Of a stretch of 64,000 nucleotides of DNA, positions 30,105 to 54,802 are shown piece after piece. Every line of letters begins with the position of its first letter. Positions within the stretch are counted from its first letter, which is position 1. The position numbers and the translations under genes were made by a program. The notes below the pieces were generated by a model. The model saw only the letters and a program-made list of their open reading frames with translations, did no database searches and was not told where the DNA came from. This stretch comes from Siderastrea siderea (taxonomy: Eukaryota; Cnidaria; Anthozoa; Scleractinia; Rhizangiidae): assembly GCA_964030785.1 (NCBI GenBank), contig OZ034968.1:48321230-48385229 (forward strand), read 5' to 3'.

Positions 30105-31795
30105 ATGAAGAACATAAAGGAAGTTTCTATCATCACAAGAAAGTTAGCTGGAAACAGACGGGTGGCAGAACAACCATTCAAGAACAAAAAAGGTTGTCTC
30201 CTAACTAACACAAAAGCACAGCTAGAGAGATGGAAAGAACGCTTCCAGGAGCTTCTCAACCGCCCAGTTCCATCAGAATCACCAGACATACCAGCAATGA
30301 AAGCTCCTCTAGACATCAACACAAGTAGGCCAAGCAAAGCAGAAAATAAAACAGCAATAAAGCACCTCAGGAATGGAAAAGCAGCAGAGTCTATTACTTC
30401 AGACATCCAAACATCAGTGGAAATGTTGTACAACCTGTTTAGGAAGACCTGGGAGACAGAGAATGTACCATCTGAATGGAAGCATATAACAGAGTTGCCT
30501 AAAAAGGGGGATTTCAAGGATTGTAAAAACTGCAGAGGGATCACTCTTCTATCAGTGCCCAGCAAAGTCTTCAACAAAATGCTATTGAAGAGAATGAAAA
30601 CTGAAGTAGATGGGCGCCTCCGTGATGAACAGGCGGGCCTTAGAACTGACAGATCTTGCACGGTCCATATTGCCACTCTACGCATAATCATTGAACAATC
30701 AATATAGTAGAACTCCTCCCTGTACATGTGCTTTGTTGACCTTGAGAAGGCCTTTAACAGTGTGGATAGGGAGACACTTTGGAATCCCTTACAACATCAC
30801 GGGATTCCAGAGAAGATCCTCACGCTTATAAGATCAGCAAACGAACCATTCACCTGTCAAGTAATCCATAACAACATGCTAACAGAGCCTTTCAACATCT
30901 TTACTGGAGTTAGGCAAGGGTACCGTCTCTCACCATTCCTGTTTTTGCTGACGGTAGACTGGGTGATGTCAACGACAACATCAAGACATGCCAGAGGGAT
31001 CCAGTGGACTCTTCTCAAACACCTAGAAGACCTGGATCTCGCTGATGACATTGCTCTCCTATCCCATAGACATAAGGATATGGAAGAGAAAACAGCAATA
31101 TTAGAACAACAGAGTGGAGAAGTAGGTTTGAGGATAAACCACGCAAAGACAAAAACTTTGAGAATTAACAGTACATATACGGAAAAAATTGACATGAGAG
31201 GAGTGGAGCTGGAAGATGTGGACCAACTCACATACTTGGGCAGCACTGTCAGCAAGTAGAATGGCACACATCAAGATATCAAATCAAGGATTGGAAAGGC
31301 AACAGCTGTATTTAAGACCTTACGGCCTATTTGGACAGAATCTGCCACTTCTACAAAAACAAAAATCAAGATCTTTAATTCCAATGTAAAATCTGTGCTG
31401 CTATATGCCTGCGAGACCTGGCGAACAACCAAAGCAGCAACACACAGACTTCAGACATTCATCAGCAGATGCCTGCGAAACATTTTGAAGAGGAACTATG
31501 AAGGAGAGCTGGTCAACAGCCTGTGGAGACACAAGTTATAAGAAGAAAGTGGAGATGGTTGGGCCACAACCTGAGAAAAACACCAACGAGAACAGTCCGT
31601 CAAGCTCTTAGGTGGAACCCACAAGGCCAACGCAAGAGAGGCAGACCGAAGACCACACGGAGGAGGACAGTTGAGGCAGAGGGAAACAACTGGGAAAAAC
31701 ATGGGGGCAGCTGGAAACACTAGCCCGGGACAGGAGGAAATGAAGAGCCCTGGTTGATGACCTATGCTCAGCAAGGAGTACAAGGGTTTAATTCA
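30105..31795 (+). pseudogene. LINE reverse transcriptase and C-terminal region
   Basis: First open part (30105-30707): KERFQELLNRP, ELPKKGDFKDCKNCRGITLL and RLRDEQAGLRTDRSCTVHIA. A TAG pair interrupts it at about 30705. Second part (30726-31259): MCFVDLEKAFNSVDRETLW (motif A), FTGVRQGYRLSPFLF (motif B) and LDLADDIALLSH (motif C with ADD), then VDQLTYLGSTVSK and a stop. The rest continues in broken frames with SRIGKATAVFKTLRPIW, VLLYACETWRTT, RRKWRWLGHNLRKTP and RWNPQGQRKRGRPKT, the usual end of this LINE type. Inactive. Confidence 0.75.
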
Positions 31796-32580: not shown

Positions 32581-32586
32581 TTCGTA
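32581..32586. repeat. Target-site duplication, left
   Basis: TTCGTA immediately before the element; an identical TTCGTA follows it at 54797-54802. Six-bp duplications are characteristic of Polintons. Confidence 0.9.
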
Positions 32587-35034: not shown

Positions 35035-35727
35035 TTACAAATGAAAGTCTTCCAGTTCCATACGTAATTGATCAATGTTCTCGGGTAGACAGAAGGTGCG
35101 GTTGAATAAGGCTTGAATTTCGGTTCGGGTTTTCTCGTCCACATCCCGGGATCCCACAATAGCACTGCTTTGATGTAGGGTGGGCTTTTTGGGTCCCCAA
35201 GGGACAAATTGACTGCCAGTGACCAGGGTGGCGGCATTCTCATTGACTTGGTAGTAATGGTCCGAGCGGTACCATGATTGACTGGGTATATCAAACAGGT
35301 AGACGGGTTTGCCTTGATCCATAGCCAATTGCACAGTCCAACCAGTGCCTCCTTTCACGCGTTTATGATCCGGTTCCAAGATGCCAAAGGCATAGATGGT
35401 ATGGGCTTTTTTGGCCAATTGATAATTACGTTGCAGCAATTGCAGGGTGTAAAAATGACTGGGCATTTGTTTGCCTAGTTTCTCCGCTGCCTGGTGAAGA
35501 TGGGGGTTGGCCAGCATCAGGACTTCCACCGTAGAAGGGGTGATGAAAGTGGATCGAGGATGGTTCGGGGGGACGAGGACTTCTAGTTGCATCCCAAAGT
35601 GTTTGGCCTGTTCTTCCACGAGGGCATCCGTACCTTTGGCTCCCCCGGTGTAGACCACATGGCCATGACCCACTTGCAGTTCCAAGGCACCGAGATCTTG
35701 TTCTCCGATCATGATGTCTGGGGGCAT
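35035..35727 (-). CDS. SLOG-superfamily (Rossmann-like) protein
   Basis: 230 residues from the first ATG at 35727. Residues 24-34 read VVYTGGAKGTD, the nucleotide-binding loop signature (GG-A-x-G-x-D) of the SLOG superfamily (DprA/YspA/LOG-like Rossmann folds). Then come a helix (ALVEEQAKHFGMQLEVLVPP), a hydrophobic strand (AHTIYAFGIL) and a second glycine loop (VKGGTGWTVQLAMDQGKPVY, LFD), giving the alternating strand-helix order of the fold. The C-terminal 60 residues have no assignment. It is transcribed away from the GRF gene. SLOG domains bind nucleotides or nucleotide-derived ligands in bacterial conflict systems; the ligand here is unknown. I am confident of the fold, not of the role. 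Confidence 0.75.
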   Translation of the reverse strand: MPPDIMIGEQDLGALELQVGHGHVVYTGGAKGTDALVEEQAKHFGMQLEVLVPPNHPRSTFITPSTVEVLMLANPHLHQAAEKLGKQMPSHFYTLQLLQRNYQLAKKAHTIYAFGILEPDHKRVKGGTGWTVQLAMDQGKPVYLFDIPSQSWYRSDHYYQVNENAATLVTGSQFVPWGPKKPTLHQSSAIVGSRDVDEKTRTEIQALFNRTFCLPENIDQLRMELEDFHL

Positions 35728-35942: not shown

Positions 35943-36800
35943 ATGTCTGTCGATCGGAAGAGAAAATCAACCCATCCCCCAGAGGGGAAGAAGAAGAAGA
36001 AGAGCATTCAACATATGACGCCCGTGGACTGTGATCCTGTGGTGTGCGACGTGGTGGAAGACACCCGAGCTGCTGTGGAAGATATGATGAAAGAATTGAA
36101 TGACATGGTGGAGCAATCACCCCCATCACCTCAATTCACCTTGACGACCGTGTATGATCCTCCCAGTTCAGTGGACACTATGGTATGTCCTTACCATGAG
36201 GTGCGTTTGGAGGCCCGAGAATCTCAAAAGGGATGGAAGTATGTGAAATGTCCCATGCAACCGTGTTTGCTGTTTTGTGGTCAAGATCAAGTTCTGGAGT
36301 ATATGAAAGCCGTGTATAGTCAACCTCATGTAGAAGTGTTGGACATGTGGGGTGGTTTACAATGCTTTTGCCGTGAACCCGCTACGCTTCAACAGAGTCA
36401 TTCGACCCAGAACCCCGATCGGTTGTTTCTGACTTGTTCCAAGAAAACGTGTGGCTTCTTCCGATGGGCTGATCAACCCTTGGGTCCCAAGTACTGGAGT
36501 TGGTTTCATGACAACCCTCCCAAAAAAGCCGACCAACAAGCTGAACCACCCACCCGTGATGCTCAAGGATATCCCAAGAGGGGCTATGACATCCCTGGCC
36601 CTCCAGTCAGAAGGAAAGAGGACGTGGATCGGCCCCTGACAGACTATGAGAAACAATTGTTACGAGAAATTCAAGAGCTCAAGAACCGTCAAGAAATGAT
36701 GGTAGCCCCGGCACCACCACCCCCCAAGTACAGTGACAGTGTGGAGAACTGGCAGAAAGGTCTAGAGACCATCAGTTGCGGCCGTCTAGGTCTCTTTTAA
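35943..36800 (+). CDS. GRF zinc-finger protein
   Basis: About 285 residues, starting at the first ATG after the TATA box. A Lys-rich nuclear-localisation-like N-terminus (KRKSTHPPEGKKKKK) is followed by an acidic linker. Residues about 77-120 hold a degenerate first finger (MVCPYHEVRLEARESQKGWK, CPMQPCLLFC), and residues about 138-185 a GRF-type finger: CFCREP, NPDRLFLTCSKKTCGFFRWA. GRF fingers (C-x-C, then NxxRxFxxC, C-x-FFxW) bind single-stranded nucleic acid in host topoisomerases and nucleases. A predicted coiled coil (DYEKQLLREIQELKNRQEMM) ends the protein. GRF fingers are known in Polintons; a replication or integration role is inferred. Confidence 0.75.
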   Translation: MSVDRKRKSTHPPEGKKKKKSIQHMTPVDCDPVVCDVVEDTRAAVEDMMKELNDMVEQSPPSPQFTLTTVYDPPSSVDTMVCPYHEVRLEARESQKGWKYVKCPMQPCLLFCGQDQVLEYMKAVYSQPHVEVLDMWGGLQCFCREPATLQQSHSTQNPDRLFLTCSKKTCGFFRWADQPLGPKYWSWFHDNPPKKADQQAEPPTRDAQGYPKRGYDIPGPPVRRKEDVDRPLTDYEKQLLREIQELKNRQEMMVAPAPPPPKYSDSVENWQKGLETISCGRLGLF

Positions 36801-36801
36801 A

Positions 36802-37200
36802 ATGAGAGAACGAATAAAATTTTTTATCAATGTCACCATGGAGTCTGTGTGTGATGCGTGGGAGTCTATCTTGTCCCTGGGGCAATGGCAATGTCATCAA
36901 ACCCTTTGTCAAGTCTTATATGATCATCAACCCGGCACCCAAATCCCCATACCCCCTTGTCCCGAGGACACGCATCCTCTCCACCTCTTTGAAGAAACCC
37001 ATGTGGACCGCAACCTATATCGATGGGTGGTGTTTGTCTTATGGTTAAAAGCTCACCCAGAGGCATGGCGATGGTATCGAATCATTCAAAAGGCGCATCC
37101 CCACACGGTCCCCACCATATCGACCTTATGGGATGAATGCCAAAAAGTATGGCCCCTCGAAAGAGAACCCAACGCTGGAGTTCGTCGTCCTCATGGTTGA
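36802..37200 (+). CDS. Unknown protein overlapping the integrase start
   Basis: 132 residues, ATG one base after the GRF gene's stop (an alternative ATG 36 bp later also fits). Rich in Trp, His and Cys (HVDRNLYRWVVFVLWLKAHP, EAWRWYRIIQKAHPHT), predicted helical, no recognised family. Its last 50-65 bases overlap the start of the integrase in another frame. The tight packing suggests a bicistronic message with the integrase. Confidence 0.55.
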   Translation: MRERIKFFINVTMESVCDAWESILSLGQWQCHQTLCQVLYDHQPGTQIPIPPCPEDTHPLHLFEETHVDRNLYRWVVFVLWLKAHPEAWRWYRIIQKAHPHTVPTISTLWDECQKVWPLEREPNAGVRRPHG

Positions 37201-38309
37201 AGAAGAAAACCAAGGTTTCGTCAACGAAGAAGAAGACCAATGTCTCGCAACAATGGTTGAAGCGTTACCATGATCCTCGTACCCCGGGGAGTTTAGGTGG
37301 GGTGCAACGATTTGCTAAAGCCCAGGGTCTCCCTTTGAAAAAAGCCCAACAGGTGTTGGAACAGGATGTGGGTTACACCTTGCATAAACCTCGACGTCGT
37401 CGTTTTGCTACCTTACCCGTGATCGTAGGGGGGTTGGATGATCAATGGGCCGCGGATTTAGTGGAAGTGCAACGTTTGGCCAAACATAATCGGGGTATAC
37501 GCTACTTGTTGACCGTCGTGGATGTGTTGTCCAAGTACGCGTGGGTCGAACCGTTGAAAACCAAAACCGGGGTGGCCCTCGTGAAAGCCTTTGAGAAGAT
37601 TGTGAGACAAGGAGGACGTCACCCGAATCGATTGCAAACGGATCGAGGGAAAGAATTTTATAATCGGACCTTTCAACGATGGGTCGACGAGCAAAACATC
37701 CATCATTTTTCGACCGAAGGGGATGCCAAAGCCAGTGTCGTGGAACGATTTAACCGCACCTTGAAAGAACGGTTGTACCGTTATTTGACCGCGGCCAACA
37801 CGTTGAAATTTGACGATGTCTTACCCGAGTTGGTGCAGGGGTATAATGCCACCCGTCATCGAAGTATTGGTATGCCCCCCGAAAACGTGACGTGGGACAA
37901 CGAAGAAGCCGTGTGGAAACGATTGTATGCCAAACGATTGAAAGGCTACAAAAAACCCCAATTGAAGGTGGGGGATCATGTCCGTCTCAATACGATTCAT
38001 CGTACCTTTGAAAAAGGGTATTTACCCGGTTGGACCGAAGAAGTGTTTGTGGTGCATCGTGTGATCCCTGGCCCTGTCCCCACGTATAAGATTCGCGAAT
38101 GGGATGAGACCCCCGTCAAAGGTACGTTTTATGAAGAGGATTTACAAAAAGTCCATGTGTCCGAGGTGTTTCGGATCGAGAAGGTACTTAAGCGACAAAA
38201 AGGTCGTTGGTTGGTCAAGTGGAAAGGGTGGCCCGACAAGTACAATAGTTGGATTGCTCGTGGAGACGTGACATCCCTTCGACCCCGCAAACGACGACGA
38301 CGCCGCTAA
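37137..38309 (+). CDS. INT: Retroviral-type integrase with chromodomain
   Basis: About 390 residues; the ATG at 37149 is an alternative start. Residues about 100-265 form the RNase H-like rve core with a DD35E triad: D near 107 (WAADLVEVQ), D near 168 (LQTDRGKEFYNRTF) and E near 203 (SVVERFNRTLKERL), all present. An SH3-like segment follows (LKVGDHVRLNTIHRTFEKGY). Residues about 342-375 form a chromodomain (FRIEKVLKRQKGRWLVKWKG, W), which in related elements reads histone marks and directs insertion. An Arg-rich tail ends the protein. It would cut and join the TIR ends, producing the 6-bp duplication seen. Fully open, so plausibly active. Confidence 0.95.
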   Translation: MPKSMAPRKRTQRWSSSSSWLKKKTKVSSTKKKTNVSQQWLKRYHDPRTPGSLGGVQRFAKAQGLPLKKAQQVLEQDVGYTLHKPRRRRFATLPVIVGGLDDQWAADLVEVQRLAKHNRGIRYLLTVVDVLSKYAWVEPLKTKTGVALVKAFEKIVRQGGRHPNRLQTDRGKEFYNRTFQRWVDEQNIHHFSTEGDAKASVVERFNRTLKERLYRYLTAANTLKFDDVLPELVQGYNATRHRSIGMPPENVTWDNEEAVWKRLYAKRLKGYKKPQLKVGDHVRLNTIHRTFEKGYLPGWTEEVFVVHRVIPGPVPTYKIREWDETPVKGTFYEEDLQKVHVSEVFRIEKVLKRQKGRWLVKWKGWPDKYNSWIARGDVTSLRPRKRRRRR

Positions 38310-41529: not shown

Positions 41530-42942
41530 ATGCCTGACGTGAGTACACAAACCGCCCCGGCTCACGAGCGTTCCGAAGCGACCGTCAACCCAGCGTTACG
41601 GATTTTCAAGGTGCCACCGACCGACATTAGCATCAATGCCTATCGCATGGTCACCATTCAACCCACCACCACGGGTATCAATCCTATGGAATTCATCATT
41701 CCAGGGTTGGACGATTTTGTGGATTTGGGACGCAGTTACTTTACCATGGAATTGAGTTTGAAAAAGGAGGATGCCGGGAACTTGGTGGCCAATCAGAAAT
41801 TGTGGCCCGTCAATAATTTGGCCCATTCCATCATCAAACAAATTGACTTGCAGTTGAATGGCACGTTGATCAGTCCTCAATCCGACACGTATCATTACAA
41901 AGCTTACCTGGAAACCTTGTTGAATTATGACCGAGAAGATGGCAAGACCGTGTTAGGACCCCAAGGATGGTTCAATGAAGTGGATTCCCCACCCGAATGG
42001 ACTGCCACCAACACCAACACCACAGCGAATGCTAATGCCGGACATGTAGACTACCAGAATCTCCCTGCCAATCACAAAGGGGCCTTGGGCGCCATGAAAG
42101 CTGAAGTGGCCAAGTATGCTGGAGGTGTCACCCACAGTCTAGTGTTTACCCCGCACTTGGAAGTCTTTCACACTGGCAAACTGTTGGTGCCAGGCATCGA
42201 AATCAAGATGAAATTTCATTTCAATGGCCCCAACTTGTTTTTGAATGGAGTGGCTCTAGCTGGCCGATTGATGGAAGGGGATGTGAAACTACGGTTTCAT
42301 CTCTGTCAACTGCGTTTGAATGACGCCATCTACCAGAGTATATCTAGCAAAAGACACAATGAAGGCCAAGTGGCGGCTTACCCGACCGTCCGCAGTGAAA
42401 TTCGGACCTTCAGCATGCAAAACAACCTGGTCCGCTTTGATATCCCCAACCTGTTTCAAAACAGAATACCTGACCGAATGATTGTGGGGTTACTGGACAG
42501 CCGTGCCTTCAATGGAGATGTGACCCGAGATCCGTTCTGTTTCCAGAAATTTGGTCTGACCTCCATTCGACAGATTGTCAAAGGAGAAGAGTACCCTTAT
42601 GAAACCCTCCAGTTAGTGCACAACAATGGCACCCGAGATAATCTAGGCTACTTCCGTTTTCTGCAAGCCAGTGGTGCCTGGTGTAAAAAGAAAGGCAACA
42701 TGGTAGAACTGCTGGATTGGGGCCAAGATAAAAATTGTACCTTGTACATGTTTGACAATGTGGCCAATGGATGTGCTGACAGTCAAAACCTCAACCCCAA
42801 GCAAACGGGAGATTTACAACTGGTGTTGGAATTTGGAGCCGCCCCCGGTAACAATATAACCGTACTCGTGTATGGAGAATTTGAGAATTTGCTGGAGATT
42901 GACAGGAACGGAGCCGTGTTGTATAACATTTACCAGCACTAA
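41530..42942 (+). CDS. MCP: Major capsid protein (double jelly-roll candidate)
   Basis: 470 residues, the length of Polinton major capsid proteins (PY). Beta-strand-rich, with a first-domain strand pair (SYFTMELSLKKEDAGNLV) and HSIIKQIDLQLNGTLISPQS followed by YKAYLETLLNYDREDGKTVL. This pattern is conserved across invertebrate Polinton capsids and related uncharacterised invertebrate proteins. The C-terminal part has TGDLQLVLEFGAAPGNNITV and LVYGEFENLLEID. Located between basic core proteins and the protease, as in related elements. Fold assignment follows published structure-based work on Polinton capsids and has not been modelled here. Confidence 0.85.
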   Translation: MPDVSTQTAPAHERSEATVNPALRIFKVPPTDISINAYRMVTIQPTTTGINPMEFIIPGLDDFVDLGRSYFTMELSLKKEDAGNLVANQKLWPVNNLAHSIIKQIDLQLNGTLISPQSDTYHYKAYLETLLNYDREDGKTVLGPQGWFNEVDSPPEWTATNTNTTANANAGHVDYQNLPANHKGALGAMKAEVAKYAGGVTHSLVFTPHLEVFHTGKLLVPGIEIKMKFHFNGPNLFLNGVALAGRLMEGDVKLRFHLCQLRLNDAIYQSISSKRHNEGQVAAYPTVRSEIRTFSMQNNLVRFDIPNLFQNRIPDRMIVGLLDSRAFNGDVTRDPFCFQKFGLTSIRQIVKGEEYPYETLQLVHNNGTRDNLGYFRFLQASGAWCKKKGNMVELLDWGQDKNCTLYMFDNVANGCADSQNLNPKQTGDLQLVLEFGAAPGNNITVLVYGEFENLLEIDRNGAVLYNIYQH

Positions 42943-42944
42943 AG

Positions 42945-43484
42945 ATGGAACATGTGGCCTTGAATAATGTGCAATTGGATTATTTAGCCCGAGACGACCC
43001 CCAATTGAACCCTGTCTTTTACGGGACGGTGGCCTGTGATCGTTTACCCAAGAGTCCTGTCAAGACCCAACCCCAAGGGTACATTGTGAATACCGACCCA
43101 CACGATCAACCGGGACAACATTGGTTAGCGGTGTGGACCGATGGAAAGGTGTGTGAAGTCCTCGATAGTTATGCTTTGCCATTGGACACGTACGTGCAAG
43201 CTACCCCGTTACGAGATTGGATCGTCCAACATTGGAAGTATGTAGTGACCAATGGCAAGTCCCTCCAAGCCATTTCAAGCAAGAGTTGTGGTGATTACGC
43301 CTTGTTGTACTTGAAAGCCAAAGCCCGTGGACGGACCTTGCAAGCGTTTTTAAATGAGTTTTCGGATCATGATTATGTTAGTAATGACCATCAAGCCGGT
43401 CAACGCCTTCAACAATTGATTGTAGGCCAAGAAGCCAGATGGTATCAACTGTGTTGTCATCCGTATCATCAATGTAATGGTTAA
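42945..43484 (+). CDS. PRO: Adenain-like maturation cysteine protease
   Basis: 179 residues, two bases after the capsid stop. The catalytic set of the adenain/Ulp1 clan is complete: His59 (GQHWLAVW), Asp74 (EVLDSYA), the oxyanion Gln108 (LQAISS) and Cys115 (SKSCGDYALLYLKAKA). Family members cut after G-G or G-x-G sites in capsid and core precursors; several neighbours carry such sites (QRGG, MRGG). Expected to act inside assembling particles. Confidence 0.9.
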   Translation: MEHVALNNVQLDYLARDDPQLNPVFYGTVACDRLPKSPVKTQPQGYIVNTDPHDQPGQHWLAVWTDGKVCEVLDSYALPLDTYVQATPLRDWIVQHWKYVVTNGKSLQAISSKSCGDYALLYLKAKARGRTLQAFLNEFSDHDYVSNDHQAGQRLQQLIVGQEARWYQLCCHPYHQCNG

Positions 43485-43513
43485 ATAAAATTTGTTGGAA
43501 AAAAAGTGGTGTC

Positions 43514-43600
43514 GGAGTCGTAGCTCAGTGGGTAGAGCCTTTGGATCCCCCCTCGAATACATGAGGAGGGTCGTGCGTGGGTTCGAGTCCCACCGATTCC
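43514..43600 (+). tRNA. tRNA-like RNA polymerase III gene, enlarged central arm
   Basis: 87 bp. The acceptor stem GGAGTCG (43514-43520) pairs with CGATTCC (43594-43600) over 7 bp with one G-U. The D arm GCTC/GAGC is inside the A box (TAGCTCAGTGG). The T arm GTGGG-TTCGAGT-CCCAC contains the B box (GGTTCGAGTCC). Between them, where a 17-nt anticodon arm belongs, is a 29-nt hairpin: GATCC pairs with GGGTC, extended through CC-TC/GAG-GG to an 8-nt loop GAATACAT. A standard anticodon cannot be assigned: a 5-bp/7-nt reading gives CCC with a mismatched stem. A T-run terminator follows at 43615-43624. Could be a functional tRNA with an intron, a decayed tRNA, or a non-decoding Pol III RNA. Confidence 0.75.
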
Positions 43601-43614
43601 AATAAAAAGGTGCC

Positions 43615-43624
43615 TTTTTTTTTT
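43615..43624 (+). terminator. RNA polymerase III terminator
   Basis: A run of ten T on the plus strand, 15 bp after the tRNA-like gene and 22 bp before the ATPase start codon. Confidence 0.65.
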
Positions 43625-43646: not shown

Positions 43647-44300
43647 ATGCAAACGGGGAAACCGTTTCGTTTTCATACTCCTTCCTCTATCTTGGTGGTG
43701 GGTCCTTCGGGATGTGGGAAAACCGCGTTTACGGAAAAACTCTTGGTAGACAACCCGGATTTGTTTGAAACCCCACTGACCCAAATGCATTATTGTTATG
43801 GGGCCTGGCAAGATCGATTTCAAGGCATGCAAGATCAAGGGGTGGTGTTTCACGAAGGGATTCCCGATCATGAGGCCTTAGTGCAATGGTTTCCTGAAGG
43901 ACAGGGGGTCCTCGTTTTGGATGATTTAATGGATGAAGGCAGTCACGATAAACGCGTGTTGGATTTATTCACCAAACATTCGCATCATCAAGGGGTGACT
44001 GTGCTCTACTTGTGCCAAGACATGTTTCCCGTGGGTCGCTATGCGAAAAGTATATCCCGCAATGCCCATTACATCGTGGCGTTCAAGAACCCCCGAGATC
44101 AATTAGGGGTACGCAATGTCATGCTTCAATCGTTTCCGACCACGTGGAAAGACACGTTGGAGACGTTTCATCAAGCCACGACACGACCGTATGGGTATTT
44201 GGTCTTGGATTTACATCCGGCCTCGTCCGATCAACAACGTGTGTTGAGTCACCTGTTAAAAGACGAAGGATGGACTCGCACCTATCAAAAACGACTATAA
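43647..44300 (+). CDS. ATP: Genome-packaging ATPase (FtsK/HerA, A32-like)
   Basis: 217 residues. Walker A GPSGCGKT at 19-26 and Walker B VLVLDD at 88-93, followed by LMDEGSHDKRVLDLFTKHSH. The sensor-like strand VTVLYLCQDMFP and the arginine in ISRNAHYIVAFKNPRDQ are as expected for the A32 group. It powers DNA entry into the capsid. Its last codons contain TATAAAGG, the likely promoter of the next gene. Confidence 0.92.
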   Translation: MQTGKPFRFHTPSSILVVGPSGCGKTAFTEKLLVDNPDLFETPLTQMHYCYGAWQDRFQGMQDQGVVFHEGIPDHEALVQWFPEGQGVLVLDDLMDEGSHDKRVLDLFTKHSHHQGVTVLYLCQDMFPVGRYAKSISRNAHYIVAFKNPRDQLGVRNVMLQSFPTTWKDTLETFHQATTRPYGYLVLDLHPASSDQQRVLSHLLKDEGWTRTYQKRL

Positions 44301-45270: not shown

Positions 45271-45936
45271 ATGAAAACCGTCGTGTCGTTATTGAATGGA
45301 TCCAAACAGCATGGTCTTCCCTTCCCCCCGGAATTATTACAACGGATGGATTCCTTGTATGCCTTTTATCATCAACAATGGTGGTGTTATCGAAAAATGT
45401 TGAATCATTACAGGTGTGTCAATGCCTTGTTCAATGGGTTGGCCTTACTCCTGATGGCCGCGGGTATGATTGCCGGGCCGCTATTGGAAAACAGTACGTT
45501 GGTAGCGTGTTTGGCGGCGGTGGGCACCGTGGTCAAAGGATGGAATGATTTTAAACAATACCGATTTAAAGTGACCATGAGTCGATTTGCGTTTACCACC
45601 TATGCCAAAGCCTTGACCGAATTGAAAACCCATGTGCGGGGTATTCCCTTGGAGGATCTGGAACGATTTTTAATCAAGATGCAAACCTTGGATGATACCA
45701 TTGTGGATTTCACCCCTCCGTTACCCAAACGATGTGTCCAAGATTACCATGGTCATTTTGTGTACCAACCCTTGGAAGGCCTGTGCTATGTAGACGGATG
45801 TCCTCGTCCCTTGAGACCCAAAGACTATTGGATCCATAAAAAGCCGCTCCCTCCTAGTCCCACACTCTTAGAACCATGGCCGTCCAACCACGACGACGAC
45901 GACGCAGAAAAAGGAAACAACGAGGAGGGGCTTTAA
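45271..45936 (+). CDS. Two-TM protein, SLATT-like
   Basis: 221 residues, 2 bp after the previous stop; a TATAAAC lies 59 bp upstream. An N-terminal helix (YAFYHQQWWCYRKMLNHYRC) leads into two adjacent hydrophobic segments, about 50-70 (NALFNGLALLLMAAGMIAGP) and 76-90 (TLVACLAAVGTVVKG). They are separated by a short LENS turn and followed by a long cytosolic helix (FKVTMSRFAFTTYAKALTEL). Helix-TM-TM-helix is the layout of SLATT domains, predicted pore-forming effectors in nucleotide-signalling conflict systems. The C-terminal tail has C and Pro residues and an acidic end. The family call is from layout only. Confidence 0.55.
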   Translation: MKTVVSLLNGSKQHGLPFPPELLQRMDSLYAFYHQQWWCYRKMLNHYRCVNALFNGLALLLMAAGMIAGPLLENSTLVACLAAVGTVVKGWNDFKQYRFKVTMSRFAFTTYAKALTELKTHVRGIPLEDLERFLIKMQTLDDTIVDFTPPLPKRCVQDYHGHFVYQPLEGLCYVDGCPRPLRPKDYWIHKKPLPPSPTLLEPWPSNHDDDDAEKGNNEEGL

Positions 45937-49741: not shown

Positions 49742-52700
49742 ATGTCCTCTCGCCAAGACGAAGCGGGGCCTAGTGGCCTCGCTAGAGGCGACGTCATGTC
49801 CTTGCTTGGACTAGAGATGTCCGATTCAGAGCCAGAAGAAGACGAGACGACAACAACTTCCTGTGTGGGACCTATGTTATGTACCGAAGACATGCCGGAC
49901 AGTGATGAGATTTGTGAAGAGGCCTTGGATCGCTTCGAACGCCAACGTGCGTTTCAAACCCATCTTCTTCAACAAACTGGGGGAGGTTTGGATACCTCGA
50001 TCGGAGCAGGAACGTTTGACTTTGAACTCCAACCCTATGTCGATCGTTTGAGCAACCGTCTGGGAGTGCGTGAACGTCATTTCAAGACCCAGTTACGTCA
50101 AAGGGGGAATTTCATTCCCAATCAGAGCATGACTCGAGCTCTAGAAGAGGGGTTACGTCGCGCGGTGAATCAAGTGTTGACCACCACCACACCTCCCCTC
50201 CACGATCAAGATCGCCTGTACTTTACCATCGCCTCCAACAGACTCCATAATAATTTTCAGGGCTGGGGATTACGTGCAGGAGAATGGCGCCAAGGCGGCG
50301 ACCGTGTCGAGGCTTTATTCCAACGTTTAGCCCAAGCCCTCAACAGCAACGAACAATTTGAAATGGACGACTCCTTTCAAGTCTCCATTACTCAAGTCCA
50401 TCATGCCCCTCAAGGAACCGGCAAACCACGCCGGACCAAACCCGGACATCAACCTCTACGAAATTTAATACCCAAGAAACGTTCCATTATCCATATTCAA
50501 AACAGGGATGAACTCTGTTGTGCCAGAGCCCTCGTCACTGCCAAAGCCAAAGTGGACCAACACCCGAAATGGCATTCAATTCGCAAAGGAAGGCCCCTGC
50601 AGAGAACCCTAGCTCTGGAGCTCCAGAATGAAGCCCAGGTACCCTTCGGTCCTTGTGGCTACCATGCCTTGACCCAATTCAGTACCACTCCTTCCCTGAC
50701 CGGTTACCAGATCCTGTTGGTGGATGCCGACCGTTCTTATCACATCACCACCTTTGGTCCCCTTCAAGACAAACAATTGATCCTGTTGCACGAGAAAGGT
50801 CATTATGATGTCATTACCAAGTTGCCAGGCTTTTTCGGATCCAGTTACGTCTGTGCCCATTGTTGGAAACCCTATGAGCATGAGGGAAAGCATCGATGCA
50901 ACAACAACAAACGTCATTGCAGGGCCTGTTGCCAAAAAGAGTGTCCTGATTTCCTGGAGGCGTACCCTCGAGGCCAGAAAGCCACTCAACGTTGTCAACA
51001 ATGTCATCGGGACTTTTTTGGAGACACCTGTTTCCAAATGCATCTCGTCAAGGACCACGCCGGCAAACCCGTGACCAACCTAGACTCCTCCGTCTGCTTT
51101 CGGCGCCGTCGCTGTGCTAAATGTCTAATCCTAGTTCCTGCTTGCCACATTGACAAGCATCAATGTGGCTACATTGATTGTCCCTGCTGTCATGAGTACG
51201 TGGACGGTGCAACTCATCGTTGTTTTATTCAAATAGCCACTCAAGACAAGAAAAGAAAGAGGAAACGACAACGAGGGCCCCGCGCCAAACGTAGGGTGGG
51301 TGTGGATGCCACACCCGAGGAGGAGGAAGACGAGGAGGAGGACAGCATACCACCCCTTCATGTCTTCTTTGATATTGAAGCCATGCAACCCCAAGAACAA
51401 CACATCGCTAATCTCGTCGTGGCCGAAACCGAAGACGACGACCAACCCATGTGTTTCCCTGGCAACCATTGCGTCCGAGATTTCCTGGAATGGTTGGATA
51501 CCTTGACACTCCACGATACCCGTCAAGTTAATGTGTTGGCCCATAACTTCCAAGGGTACGATGGTTACTTTATCATTCATCAATATTATGGCGACAACAG
51601 GATCGTCGAGCAGCTCCGGAACGGGTGTAAACTCTTGCAAGTCCAACACGATCGTATCCGCTTCATCGACTCTTTGAGTTTCTTCCAGATGCCTCTATCG
51701 GCGTTTCCCAAAACCTTTGGATTGACAGAACTCTGTAAAGGGTACTTCCCCCACAAGTTCAATCATCCAGATCATCAAAACTACGTAGGACCCATCCCGG
51801 CCCTTGATTACTACATGCCTGAAACCATGTCCCCCGAAGGCAAGCAAGCCTTGGAAACCTGGCATCAAGACCAACGCGACAAGGTCTTTGACTTCCGCAA
51901 AGAACTGGTTAAGTACTGCAAATCGGATGTACGTCTCTTGAAAGAAGGTTGTTTGACATTCAAACGGTTGTTTGAAACGCTGACGGGCTTCAACCCCTTC
52001 GACCACATCACCATTGCCTCTGCTTGTAACCGCGATTTACGCATGAATCGCATGATCCCCAACAGTATTGCCAGTGAACCCGTCCGAGGATGGCGCAATC
52101 GCATCAACTACTCCAACGTGGCCCTGGAATGGTTAACCTGGTGTGCCCAACAACAACAACAGACCATTCAACATGCCCGTAATGCCGGCGAGTATTGCAT
52201 CCCTGGCACTAACTTCCATGTCGACGGTTTCGATGCCAGTACCAACACCATCTACGAATTTCACGGGTGTTTCTGGCATGGGTGTCGTCGCTGTTTCCCC
52301 ATTCGTCACGAAAGCCATCTACGTCACTATGATCGAACCATGCAAGATGTCTACGAGACCACCCAGCAAAGGATCCAACAATTTAAAGAGCTCGGATACC
52401 ATGTCATAGAAATGTGGGAATGTGATTGGACCCGTCTCAAAGACACCTCCTTGGACATCCGAACGTACCTGGGGACCCTTGACTTCACAGAACCTCTCAA
52501 CCCCCGTGACGCTTTCTGCGGGGGTCGTACCAATGCTGTGAAACTGTACCATCGCGTGACACCCAGTCAACAAATACATTACATTGATGTGACCTCCTTG
52601 TACCCCTGGGTGAACAAGACCTGTGTGTACCCCAAAGGCCATCCTCGTTTCATCTTCAATCCGGGACACACCGACATCCGTCAGTACTTTGGCCTCGTCC

Positions 52701-53875
52701 AATGCAAAGTCCTGCCGCCACGTCATCTCTACCATCCTGTCCTCCCTTACCGTCATGACTCCAAACTCCTTTTTCCTCTCTGTGCTGCCTGTGTGGAACA
52801 AGAGATGCCCAAACGACCCTTAGACAGATGCGCAGAATGTGTGCACACCGACGAACAGCGAGCCCTGACTGGAACATGGTGTAGCCCCGAATTATCTAAA
52901 GCGGTGGACTTGGGGTACGACATCCTGTACATCTATGAGGTCTGGCATTTTGACGAGACGTGTGAAGGCCTCTTCAAGGACTACGTCAACACCTGGTTGA
53001 AAATCAAGCAAGAAGCCAGCGGGTGGCCATCCTGGGTCGGTGAAGACGAAACCAAACGTCAGCAATACCTTCGAGAGTACTACGAGCATGAAGGCATCCA
53101 ATTGGAGTACCACAACATCAAAAAGAACCCGGGCTTGCGTACCCTCGCTAAAATGATGCTCAATTCCATGTGGGGCAAGTTTGGACAACGTCTGAATAAG
53201 ACCCAAGTCGAAACATTTGATGACCCTCAAGCCTTCCACCGTTTTCTAGATACCAGTACTTTGGAGGTACGTCACGTATCCGTTATCAATGACAACTTAG
53301 TGGAGGTACATTACCAGTACCAAGACGAAGACATCCCCGTGTCACCTAACCTCAATATCTTCGTGGCGTGTTTCACTACCTGTTGGGCCCGGCTCCGCCT
53401 GTATACAGCCCTGGAACAGCTAGGGGAACGTGTCCTCTACTACGACACGGACTCCGTCATCTATTGGACAGACGAGAATCAATCCATCCCGGTCTTGGGC
53501 GATTACCTCGGCGAGTTTACGAGTGAATTGGACCCTGACGATTTCATTGTGGAATTTGTCTCAGGGGGTCCCAAGAACTATGGGTATCAAACCCAGAAGG
53601 GTCACGTTGAGTGCAAGGTGCGAGGTTTCCGCCTTAACAGCGAAGGCAAAACCCAATTGAATTACAACATCATGCGTCAGAATGTCCTGGATGAAATCCA
53701 GAAGCCACTTCTACGTCCACGCCAAACCCAGGTCATCAAGACCCACCAAATTGTGCGCGATCCCAAACACTACCAACTGTACACCTTCCCCGAATACAAA
53801 CGATACCAGCTCGTGTACGATAAAAGAGTCGTGGATCCTGTCACCTTCCAGACCTACCCTTATGGATACCAGTGA
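49742..53875 (+). CDS. POLB: Protein-primed family B DNA polymerase
   Basis: 1377 residues, typical of Polinton polymerases. N-terminal 350 residues with Gln-rich and charged parts (the terminal-protein-like region of such enzymes is expected here). Zinc-binding clusters lie at about 370-497 (CAHCWKPYEHEGKHRC, CRACCQKEC, CQQCHRDFFG, CPCCHEY). Exonuclease: ExoI FFDIEA (near 543), ExoII AHNFQGYDGYF (near 600), ExoIII YCKSDVRLL (near 725). A Vsr-like insert FHGCFWHGCRRC lies near 840-852. Polymerase: motif A DVTSLYP (near 948), motif B KMMLNSMWGKFG (near 1140), motif C YYDTDSVI (near 1233). All catalytic residues are present. It replicates the linear genome from protein-linked ends. Confidence 0.97.
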   Translation: MSSRQDEAGPSGLARGDVMSLLGLEMSDSEPEEDETTTTSCVGPMLCTEDMPDSDEICEEALDRFERQRAFQTHLLQQTGGGLDTSIGAGTFDFELQPYVDRLSNRLGVRERHFKTQLRQRGNFIPNQSMTRALEEGLRRAVNQVLTTTTPPLHDQDRLYFTIASNRLHNNFQGWGLRAGEWRQGGDRVEALFQRLAQALNSNEQFEMDDSFQVSITQVHHAPQGTGKPRRTKPGHQPLRNLIPKKRSIIHIQNRDELCCARALVTAKAKVDQHPKWHSIRKGRPLQRTLALELQNEAQVPFGPCGYHALTQFSTTPSLTGYQILLVDADRSYHITTFGPLQDKQLILLHEKGHYDVITKLPGFFGSSYVCAHCWKPYEHEGKHRCNNNKRHCRACCQKECPDFLEAYPRGQKATQRCQQCHRDFFGDTCFQMHLVKDHAGKPVTNLDSSVCFRRRRCAKCLILVPACHIDKHQCGYIDCPCCHEYVDGATHRCFIQIATQDKKRKRKRQRGPRAKRRVGVDATPEEEEDEEEDSIPPLHVFFDIEAMQPQEQHIANLVVAETEDDDQPMCFPGNHCVRDFLEWLDTLTLHDTRQVNVLAHNFQGYDGYFIIHQYYGDNRIVEQLRNGCKLLQVQHDRIRFIDSLSFFQMPLSAFPKTFGLTELCKGYFPHKFNHPDHQNYVGPIPALDYYMPETMSPEGKQALETWHQDQRDKVFDFRKELVKYCKSDVRLLKEGCLTFKRLFETLTGFNPFDHITIASACNRDLRMNRMIPNSIASEPVRGWRNRINYSNVALEWLTWCAQQQQQTIQHARNAGEYCIPGTNFHVDGFDASTNTIYEFHGCFWHGCRRCFPIRHESHLRHYDRTMQDVYETTQQRIQQFKELGYHVIEMWECDWTRLKDTSLDIRTYLGTLDFTEPLNPRDAFCGGRTNAVKLYHRVTPSQQIHYIDVTSLYPWVNKTCVYPKGHPRFIFNPGHTDIRQYFGLVQCKVLPPRHLYHPVLPYRHDSKLLFPLCAACVEQEMPKRPLDRCAECVHTDEQRALTGTWCSPELSKAVDLGYDILYIYEVWHFDETCEGLFKDYVNTWLKIKQEASGWPSWVGEDETKRQQYLREYYEHEGIQLEYHNIKKNPGLRTLAKMMLNSMWGKFGQRLNKTQVETFDDPQAFHRFLDTSTLEVRHVSVINDNLVEVHYQYQDEDIPVSPNLNIFVACFTTCWARLRLYTALEQLGERVLYYDTDSVIYWTDENQSIPVLGDYLGEFTSELDPDDFIVEFVSGGPKNYGYQTQKGHVECKVRGFRLNSEGKTQLNYNIMRQNVLDEIQKPLLRPRQTQVIKTHQIVRDPKHYQLYTFPEYKRYQLVYDKRVVDPVTFQTYPYGYQ

Positions 53876-54796: not shown

Positions 54797-54802
54797 TTCG
54801 TA
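54797..54802. repeat. Target-site duplication, right
   Basis: TTCGTA, identical to 32581-32586. Confidence 0.9.

Follow-up and report, generated by a model that had tools for sequence, protein, structure and literature searches.

Polintons are generally regarded as endogenous viruses with adenoviruses among their relatives. The window, that is, the whole 64,000-nucleotide stretch of Siderastrea siderea DNA analysed here, carries a Polinton/Maverick element at positions 32587-54796 (+ strand), as delimited by inverted repeats and end sequences. The terminal inverted repeats show a complementarity of about 99%, and the element is flanked by a 6-bp target-site duplication, TTCGTA. Both sets of features expected of a Polinton were found: an rve integrase together with a family B DNA polymerase, and inverted repeats together with a 6-bp duplication (Table 1). 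For the genes read as capsid, protease and ATPase, the domain matches all fall below the cut-offs; gene order and relatives fit a Polinton. Because the matches of the protease and capsid genes are weak (E 0.0015 and 0.11), both names rest also on position. Several relatives of the ATPase carry PF04665, the poxvirus A32-type ATPase. The gene read as capsid has 555 relatives, and among those listed none bears a capsid name; the named relatives of the capsid and ATPase genes, again among those listed, come only from the coral Oculina patagonica, with 59-66% identity. Neither the ATPase nor the capsid protein, nor alignments A1 and A4 nor one RNA pattern, found a relative in IMG/VR, and a scan of bacterial and archaeal genomes with alignment A1 was equally empty.

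Other genes of the element include one for a GRF zinc finger protein (35943-36800, +; E 5.8e-6, above the cut-off), one for a DprA/SLOG-like protein (35035-35727, -) and one for a SLATT-like protein (45271-45936, +). The DprA/SLOG match (E 0.0016 at best) and the SLATT match (E 5e-5) both fall below the cut-off. DprA/SLOG and SLATT proteins are types known in bacterial conflict systems. Just to the left of the element lie reverse-transcriptase-like reading frames (30105-31259, +), which by eye are RTE-like.

Table 1. Features of the Polinton and of its tRNA-like gene, in positions of the window
Feature	Position	Strand	Basis
Target-site duplication TTCGTA, left	32581-32586		end sequence
Retrovirus-like integrase gene	37137-38309	+	rve E 4.6e-13, above Pfam cut-off; Chromo E 6.4e-5, below cut-off
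Gene read as major capsid protein	41530-42942	+	Capsid_N very weak, E 0.11; position
Gene read as adenovirus-type cysteine protease, upstream neighbour	42945-43484	+	Peptidase_C5 E 0.0015, below cut-off; position
Spacer/leader, AATAAA directly after protease stop	43485-43513	+	sequence
tRNA-like gene, 88 nt	43514-43601	+	ARAGORN; Rfam RF00005; model R1, 99.3 bits
Acceptor stem, 5' strand	43514-43520	+	pairs with 43594-43600, 7/7, one G-U
A box TAGCTCAGTGGG	43521-43532	+	sequence against consensus
D arm	43523-43538	+	sequence, copy alignment
5' linker CTTTG	43539-43543	+	sequence, copy alignment
Central hairpin, 29 nt, 8-nt loop, replacing a 17-nt anticodon arm	43544-43572	+	sequence, copy comparison
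3' linker GTGC	43573-43576	+	sequence, copy alignment
T arm	43577-43593	+	sequence; B box GGTTCGAGTCC at 43580-43590, by consensus
Acceptor stem, 3' strand (43594-43600), and discriminator A (43601)	43594-43601	+	sequence
T10, likely Pol III terminator, AATAAAAAGGTGCC directly before	43615-43624	+	sequence
Gene read as packaging ATPase, downstream neighbour	43647-44300	+	AAA_16 E 0.00025, below cut-off
Family B DNA polymerase gene	49742-53875	+	DNA_pol_B_2 E 5.5e-45, above Pfam cut-off
Target-site duplication TTCGTA, right	54797-54802		end sequence

A gap of 162 nt, between two genes on the same strand, runs from the protease stop to the ATPase start codon ATG, and a tRNA-like gene lies inside it, which bears out the placement between these two genes given in an initial annotation of this DNA. 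ARAGORN, run over the 64-kb window, called this single gene, as 'tRNA-???', and the Rfam tRNA model RF00005 matched the same 88 nt at 46.1 bits (cut-off 29). Our own model, R1, built from 13 copies with the window copy among them, scored it at 99.3 bits. The 7-bp acceptor stem, the D and T arms, the A and B boxes, the T10 run and the 29-nt hairpin with its 8-nt loop, all of which had been proposed before, were seen again in the sequence, and the T run ends at the same position, 43624. The A and B boxes were assigned by comparison with their consensus sequences. A small inverted repeat, AAAAAGGTGCCTTTTT, occupies 43604-43624, between the tRNA-like gene and the ATPase, and is found in most of the copies printed; it could function on either strand.

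The minimum-energy fold of the whole RNA retained the acceptor stem, not the cloverleaf (z -3.64). When folded alone, the central segment was only moderately better than its dinucleotide shuffles (z -1.45; 14 of 200 were as good), and the folding z-scores of five centres ranged from -0.52 to -3.64. Since there is no cloverleaf in the minimum-energy fold and the z-score of the centre is only -1.45, single-sequence folding is not decisive. The case for the tRNA-like gene is carried by comparative evidence.

The genome searched comprises 831 Mb in 402 contigs. A pattern consisting of the D arm, 20-50 free bases and the T arm had 944 exact matches (447 + 497) in the 831 Mb, and the reversed pattern had none in the same sequence. 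Twenty diverse copies, picked from 100 listed of the 944 matches, all lay between a protease and an ATPase gene. A query formed by the last 26 bases of a stretch at the protease end gave 1151 matches with up to 3 mismatches. Thirty loci found in this way, with the RNA ignored, all had the tRNA-like gene ahead of the ATPase start; these were exact query matches only, all on contig C1, and are therefore close to the subfamily of the window. Fourteen more loci, reached through ATPase matches and picked for unlike frames or lengths, also had the gene in the same gap, without exception. The gene was thus between protease and ATPase in 64 of 64 loci (20 + 30 + 14), with overlaps between the samples (L029, for example, is L079). 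It was also present in all of the 20 nearest DNA matches that we fetched, as expected from how they were found. Absence from close relatives, which the initial annotation had held would speak against the gene, was accordingly not seen at any locus read within this genome, and the confinement of 64 of 64 loci to one gap is not the dispersed insertion at unrelated sites that marks a SINE. One locus (L042) carries a recent tandem duplication (1495-1581 and 1911-1997; 391 of 393 bases identical), the duplicated unit comprising the protease end, the tRNA-like gene and the ATPase start.

Pairwise differences were averaged over the 30 protease-end loci, with fourfold-degenerate sites taken from both neighbouring genes. 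The acceptor stem differed by 0.035, the D arm by 0.038 and the T arm, which contains the B box and is the most conserved part, by 0.008, as compared with 0.149 at fourfold-degenerate sites. That the arms differ less than the fourfold sites indicates purifying selection on the acceptor, D and T arms. The corresponding values were 0.033 and 0.063 for the protease and ATPase coding sequences, and 0.152 and 0.040 for the 5' and 3' spacers. As estimated from these sequences, the constraint on the arms is equal to that on protein-coding sequence, and the 5' spacer is unconstrained in the 30-copy sample; in an earlier sample of 28 copies, compared by pairwise alignment, the 5' spacer differed by 0.064 against 0.232 at fourfold sites. 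The promoter boxes, whose breakage in relatives had likewise been named as evidence against the gene, are as a rule unbroken: the A box TAGCTCAGTNGG was intact in 29 of the 30 copies, and the B box was exact in 28 and read GGTTCAAGTCC in the other two. A run of at least eight T followed the gene in 28 of 30 copies, the remaining two having runs of 6 and 2. The acceptor was fully paired (7/7) in 19 of 21 copies (the 20 diverse copies and the window), one of them through a double change from C-G to G-C (L031); most acceptor sites lie outside the search pattern. Acceptors with 6 of 7 pairs (L041) and with a single mismatch, by eye (L113), were also found.

A few copies depart further from this plan. 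The hairpin is missing from L099 (1 of the 30) and from L112 and L117 (2 of the 14), in which, by eye, about 11 nt separate the D stem from the T stem and the other arms are kept. By eye these three copies have different flanks, so the hairpinless class has spread. The 5' acceptor strand is gone from L045, L109, L110 and L111, with the hairpin, T arm and T run still in place; L109 also has an altered A box. ARAGORN called no tRNA in L045 and L046 (2 of the 20), nor in L109-L112 and L117 (5 of the 14). As each of these losses is shared by two or more copies, neither the hairpin nor the 5' acceptor strand can be a strict requirement for propagation, at least when other copies help.

The central hairpin behaves differently from the arms. 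It falls into classes of mutually unrelated sequence, namely GAUCCCCCCUC...GAGGAGGGUC, GAUCCCCC...GGGGGAUC, GACUUGAUC...GAUUGGGUC and GACCU..GAUUC...GGAUCGGGUC. When hairpin bodies were aligned pairwise they differed by 0.167 in mismatches and by 0.348 with gaps included, whereas 39 nearby control windows of 30 nt had, with gaps, a median difference of 0.040 and never exceeded 0.123. A value of 0.427 obtained in a model-fitted alignment dropped to these figures on pairwise alignment. Faster-than-neutral evolution of the hairpin became a weaker claim, its mismatches being close to the fourfold value (0.167 and 0.149) and, in the 28-copy sample, below it (0.170 against 0.232). Its excess variability, as read from the alignments, is one of insertions, deletions and class differences.

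The sequence varies and the pairing is largely kept. Among the 100 listed copies there are 55 distinct centres, and the expected single hairpin, starting 4-6 nt past the D stem and ending next to the T stem or 4-5 nt before it, was the predicted fold in 43 of them (81 of the 100 copies). Nine of the other 12 centres formed one hairpin elsewhere, several with merely a shifted end, and three formed two hairpins. In the set of 13 copies, from which the tested structure was itself drawn, double changes were found in 6 of 9 hairpin pairs and in 7 pairs of the whole structure; 94.1% of cells were paired, against 90.3 in shuffles (0 of 500 reached this), and 14 cells of the whole structure were double-changed, against 5.5 (0 of 500). 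Shifting the partner by one column lowered pairing to below 60%. An alignment of 30 copies fitted to the model (26 distinct rows) gave a mixed picture. Paired cells (0 of 500), double-changed cells (20 of 500) and the covariation score (1 of 500) stood above shuffles, whereas 272 of 500 shuffles had at least as many pairs with double changes as the five observed, and further pair types were fewer than in shuffles, 499 of 500 of which reached the same number.

Two further comparisons bear on the pairing. When 49 hairpin bodies were each cut in the middle, the two halves of one hairpin bound each other with a mean of -10.6 kcal/mol, against -8.8 for halves of different hairpins, and the summed stability of own pairing exceeded that of 5000 of 5000 re-pairings; on average 29% of foreign 3' halves, mostly of the G-rich class, bound better than the own half. 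Between copies one substitution apart (14 pairs), pairing was kept in 8 of 11 directed stem comparisons, where 20% was expected. A role of the hairpin as a guide RNA was also considered and set aside, as near-matches to its apex within the window were no commoner than chance.

At this one site we also compared the hairpin classes with their flanks in 31 sequences (the 30 loci and the window). Copies of the same class and of different classes differed to a like extent in the protease (0.036 and 0.037), the 5' spacer (0.131 and 0.151), the 3' spacer (0.047 and 0.045) and the first and second parts of the ATPase (0.058 and 0.054; 0.091 and 0.064). Judging by these values, hairpin class is unlinked to flank similarity, because of recombination among copies; this may be general recombination between copies, with nothing peculiar to the hairpin.

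The gene has the acceptor, D and T arms of a tRNA in their usual arrangement, from which the unconstrained minimum-energy fold differs, and it lacks an anticodon arm of 5 bp with a 7-nt loop and the same anticodon in orthologues. Over the 20 copies, ARAGORN returned Gln, Lys, Glu, Arg, Gly, Ser, a stop anticodon, no isotype or no gene, with disagreement on the anticodon found among copies whose ATPase is more than 80% identical to that of the window. Because the predicted anticodons are inconsistent, the gene is very probably not a decoding tRNA. By eye, 18 nt of the D-arm region are identical between a host tRNA-Lys(UUU) gene and the C variant; over the full length the best host score was that of tRNA-Thr(CGU), 26 against 17 for Lys, among the Lys, Thr and Pro genes compared. 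Polinton copies scored 60-105 bits with model R1 (its 13 building copies included), and host tRNAs at most 51.

Some public predicted ATPases start upstream and so translate the tRNA-like region. Six of 246 proteins, most of which have no upstream extension, are codon-compatible with the same D and T arms and with different centres (P0125, P0126, P0128, P0242, P0243 and P0246); three of the six were among 14 hits, P0126 itself counted, that its upstream part gave as a query. P0180, an ATPase relative at 69% identity, extends upstream in a way that would allow a B box at the same place, and its anticodon arm, as read by hand from the sequence, suggests an ordinary tRNA-Asp. By eye, the extensions of P0138, P0146, P0150 and P0173 run from the protease end to the ATPase start with seemingly no room for the gene, so that it may occur in only part of the Polinton tree.

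A fixed position, selection on the arms, largely maintained hairpin pairing and the lack of a consistent anticodon are what an RNA-level reading of these sequences is built on. Conserved outer parts around a hairpin that is rewritten and mostly refolds suggest a working viral RNA, one that would not read codons. Our preferred interpretation, which we hold to be probable by a modest measure, is that this Polinton gene yields a non-coding RNA made by Pol III, a trans-acting tRNA mimic with a stem-loop. The promoter boxes and the T run point to transcription by Pol III, and the conserved pairing of the acceptor suggests that the RNA takes the fold of a tRNA body. The acceptor, D and T arms would supply promoter, fold and stability and probably the RNase P and RNase Z ends, the anticodon arm having been swapped for a longer stem-loop. 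Inside the infected cell the RNA would serve in trans as a decoy or scaffold resembling a tRNA, and its target may be a factor of the host or of a rival virus that recognises a tRNA body plus one stem-loop. With pairing largely kept and sequence free, the stem-loop would be recognised by shape, its sequence being free or driven to diversify.

What stands of the initial proposal of a viral tRNA-like non-coding RNA is the conserved gene itself, with its presence at 64 of 64 loci, arms less divergent than fourfold sites and double changes in the pairs. Its more specific suggestions fare less well. PKR and Dicer substrates have length requirements longer than a hairpin of about 9 bp, so that a role as either is doubtful. 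A replication primer found no support in this analysis, and a captured tRNA with an intron is at odds with the roughly 9 nt left when the hairpin is removed, too short for an anticodon arm, and with predicted anticodons that vary between copies.

The main rivals to a trans-acting RNA are mRNA punctuation and a DNA boundary. According to the first, the tRNA fold would lie inside a Pol II message and be excised by RNase P and RNase Z; the cut would yield the 3' end of the protease message and the 5' end of the ATPase message, the acceptor, D and T arms alone would count, and the anticodon arm would need only to fold away. The position between two same-strand genes, the conserved arms, the free and mostly paired hairpin sequence and the conserved 3' spacer (0.040) all agree with this, and copies that lack a hairpin are easily accommodated. 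Punctuation does not, however, require conserved A and B boxes or a T run, the AATAAA at the protease stop already supplies a 3' end, and L045 and L109-L111 have no 5' acceptor strand. We regard both the excision and these consequences of it as unlikely. Alternatively, the A and B boxes could bind TFIIIC and Pol III as DNA and so separate transcription of the protease from that of the ATPase, as a boundary or terminator, with any RNA inert. The conservation of the T arm with its B box, the highest of any part (0.008), and the persistence of copies without hairpin or acceptor strand would follow. Yet DNA binding has no need of acceptor and hairpin pairing, which are kept through double changes and, for the hairpin, beat re-pairing, and we think this a rather slim possibility.

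Less probable still, in our view, is a passenger: either a host tRNA gene once captured or a SINE of tRNA origin, which would be decaying inside an old Polinton and multiply only because the element does. The likeness to host tRNA genes (Lys in the D arm, Thr over the full length) and the occurrence of ordinary tRNA genes in related viruses, as reported in PMC12220804 and PMC6905037, would fit this origin; the arms, however, diverge about 4 to 19 times less than fourfold sites, hairpin pairing is largely maintained and, unlike a SINE, the copies read share one Polinton site. That the gene encodes a functional tRNA, intron-containing or not, for decoding Polinton messages is very improbable in spite of the isotypes that ARAGORN names for some copies (Gln, Lys, Glu, Arg, Gly, Ser), given that the anticodons conflict, one is a stop and many are absent, that L045 and L046 are uncalled, and that some 9 nt remain once the hairpin is removed.

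Within the preferred reading of a Pol III tRNA mimic, it is conceivable, if rather a long shot, that the hairpin is a typing tag and the gene a superinfection-immunity or counter-defence locus. Recombining Polintons would then maintain a number of widely divergent hairpin classes, each unlinked from its flanks and all mounted on the same tRNA-like chassis, and the RNA would mediate recognition between elements, or act against a host factor in a way that favours rare types. A conserved, high-copy tRNA mimic would be a non-coding gene for the Polinton group, and its centre variants, at least 55 of them on a single chassis, would amount to a natural library. It would also become testable whether the use of Pol III RNAs, as in adenoviruses and herpesviruses, goes back further or extends more widely than has been supposed.

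We saw no description of a gene of this kind in the literature covered on Polintons together with tRNA, tRNA-like, RNA polymerase III or VA RNA, which was largely that outside subscription, and two papers on related animal viruses (PMC11071296 and PMC11071308) nowhere mention tRNA or the other RNA terms looked for. Polinton-like viruses and virophages, small relatives of Polintons, can carry ordinary tRNA genes, as the Polinton here carries a tRNA-like one (PMC12220804; PMC6905037). In the parts of these sources seen, such genes are described with their isotype (a stop anticodon in one case) and are present in a minority of genomes, with one isotype sometimes prevailing within a clade; a variable hairpin in place of the anticodon arm, as found in the Polinton, is not mentioned there.

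Adenoviruses belong to the same wider lineage as Polintons. Their VA RNAs, made by Pol III, have intragenic A and B boxes, as the Polinton gene does. According to PMC7589676, VA RNA sequence varies between types with the boxes conserved, and a tRNA gene has been proposed as its ancestor. The VA RNA is, in contrast, a hairpin rod of about 160 nt with a GGGU-ACCC central domain and with the boxes in its terminal and apical stems, whereas the Polinton gene is an 88-nt tRNA body without such a rod and without ACCC. The parallel that had been drawn with VA RNAs holds only as functional likeness, with no sequence or domain link found. The TMERs of MHV68 are also viral, made by Pol III, as the Polinton RNA would be, and composed of a tRNA-like part with one or more stem-loops. 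They differ in having two hairpins after the tRNA-like part and 200-250 nt in all, whereas the Polinton gene has one internal hairpin in 88 nt, and the 13 nt from its discriminator to the T run hold no pre-miRNA hairpins. As described in PMC4838037, TMER4 requires its tRNA-like part and one stem-loop of non-specific sequence. TMER4 is the closest tested parallel that we found.
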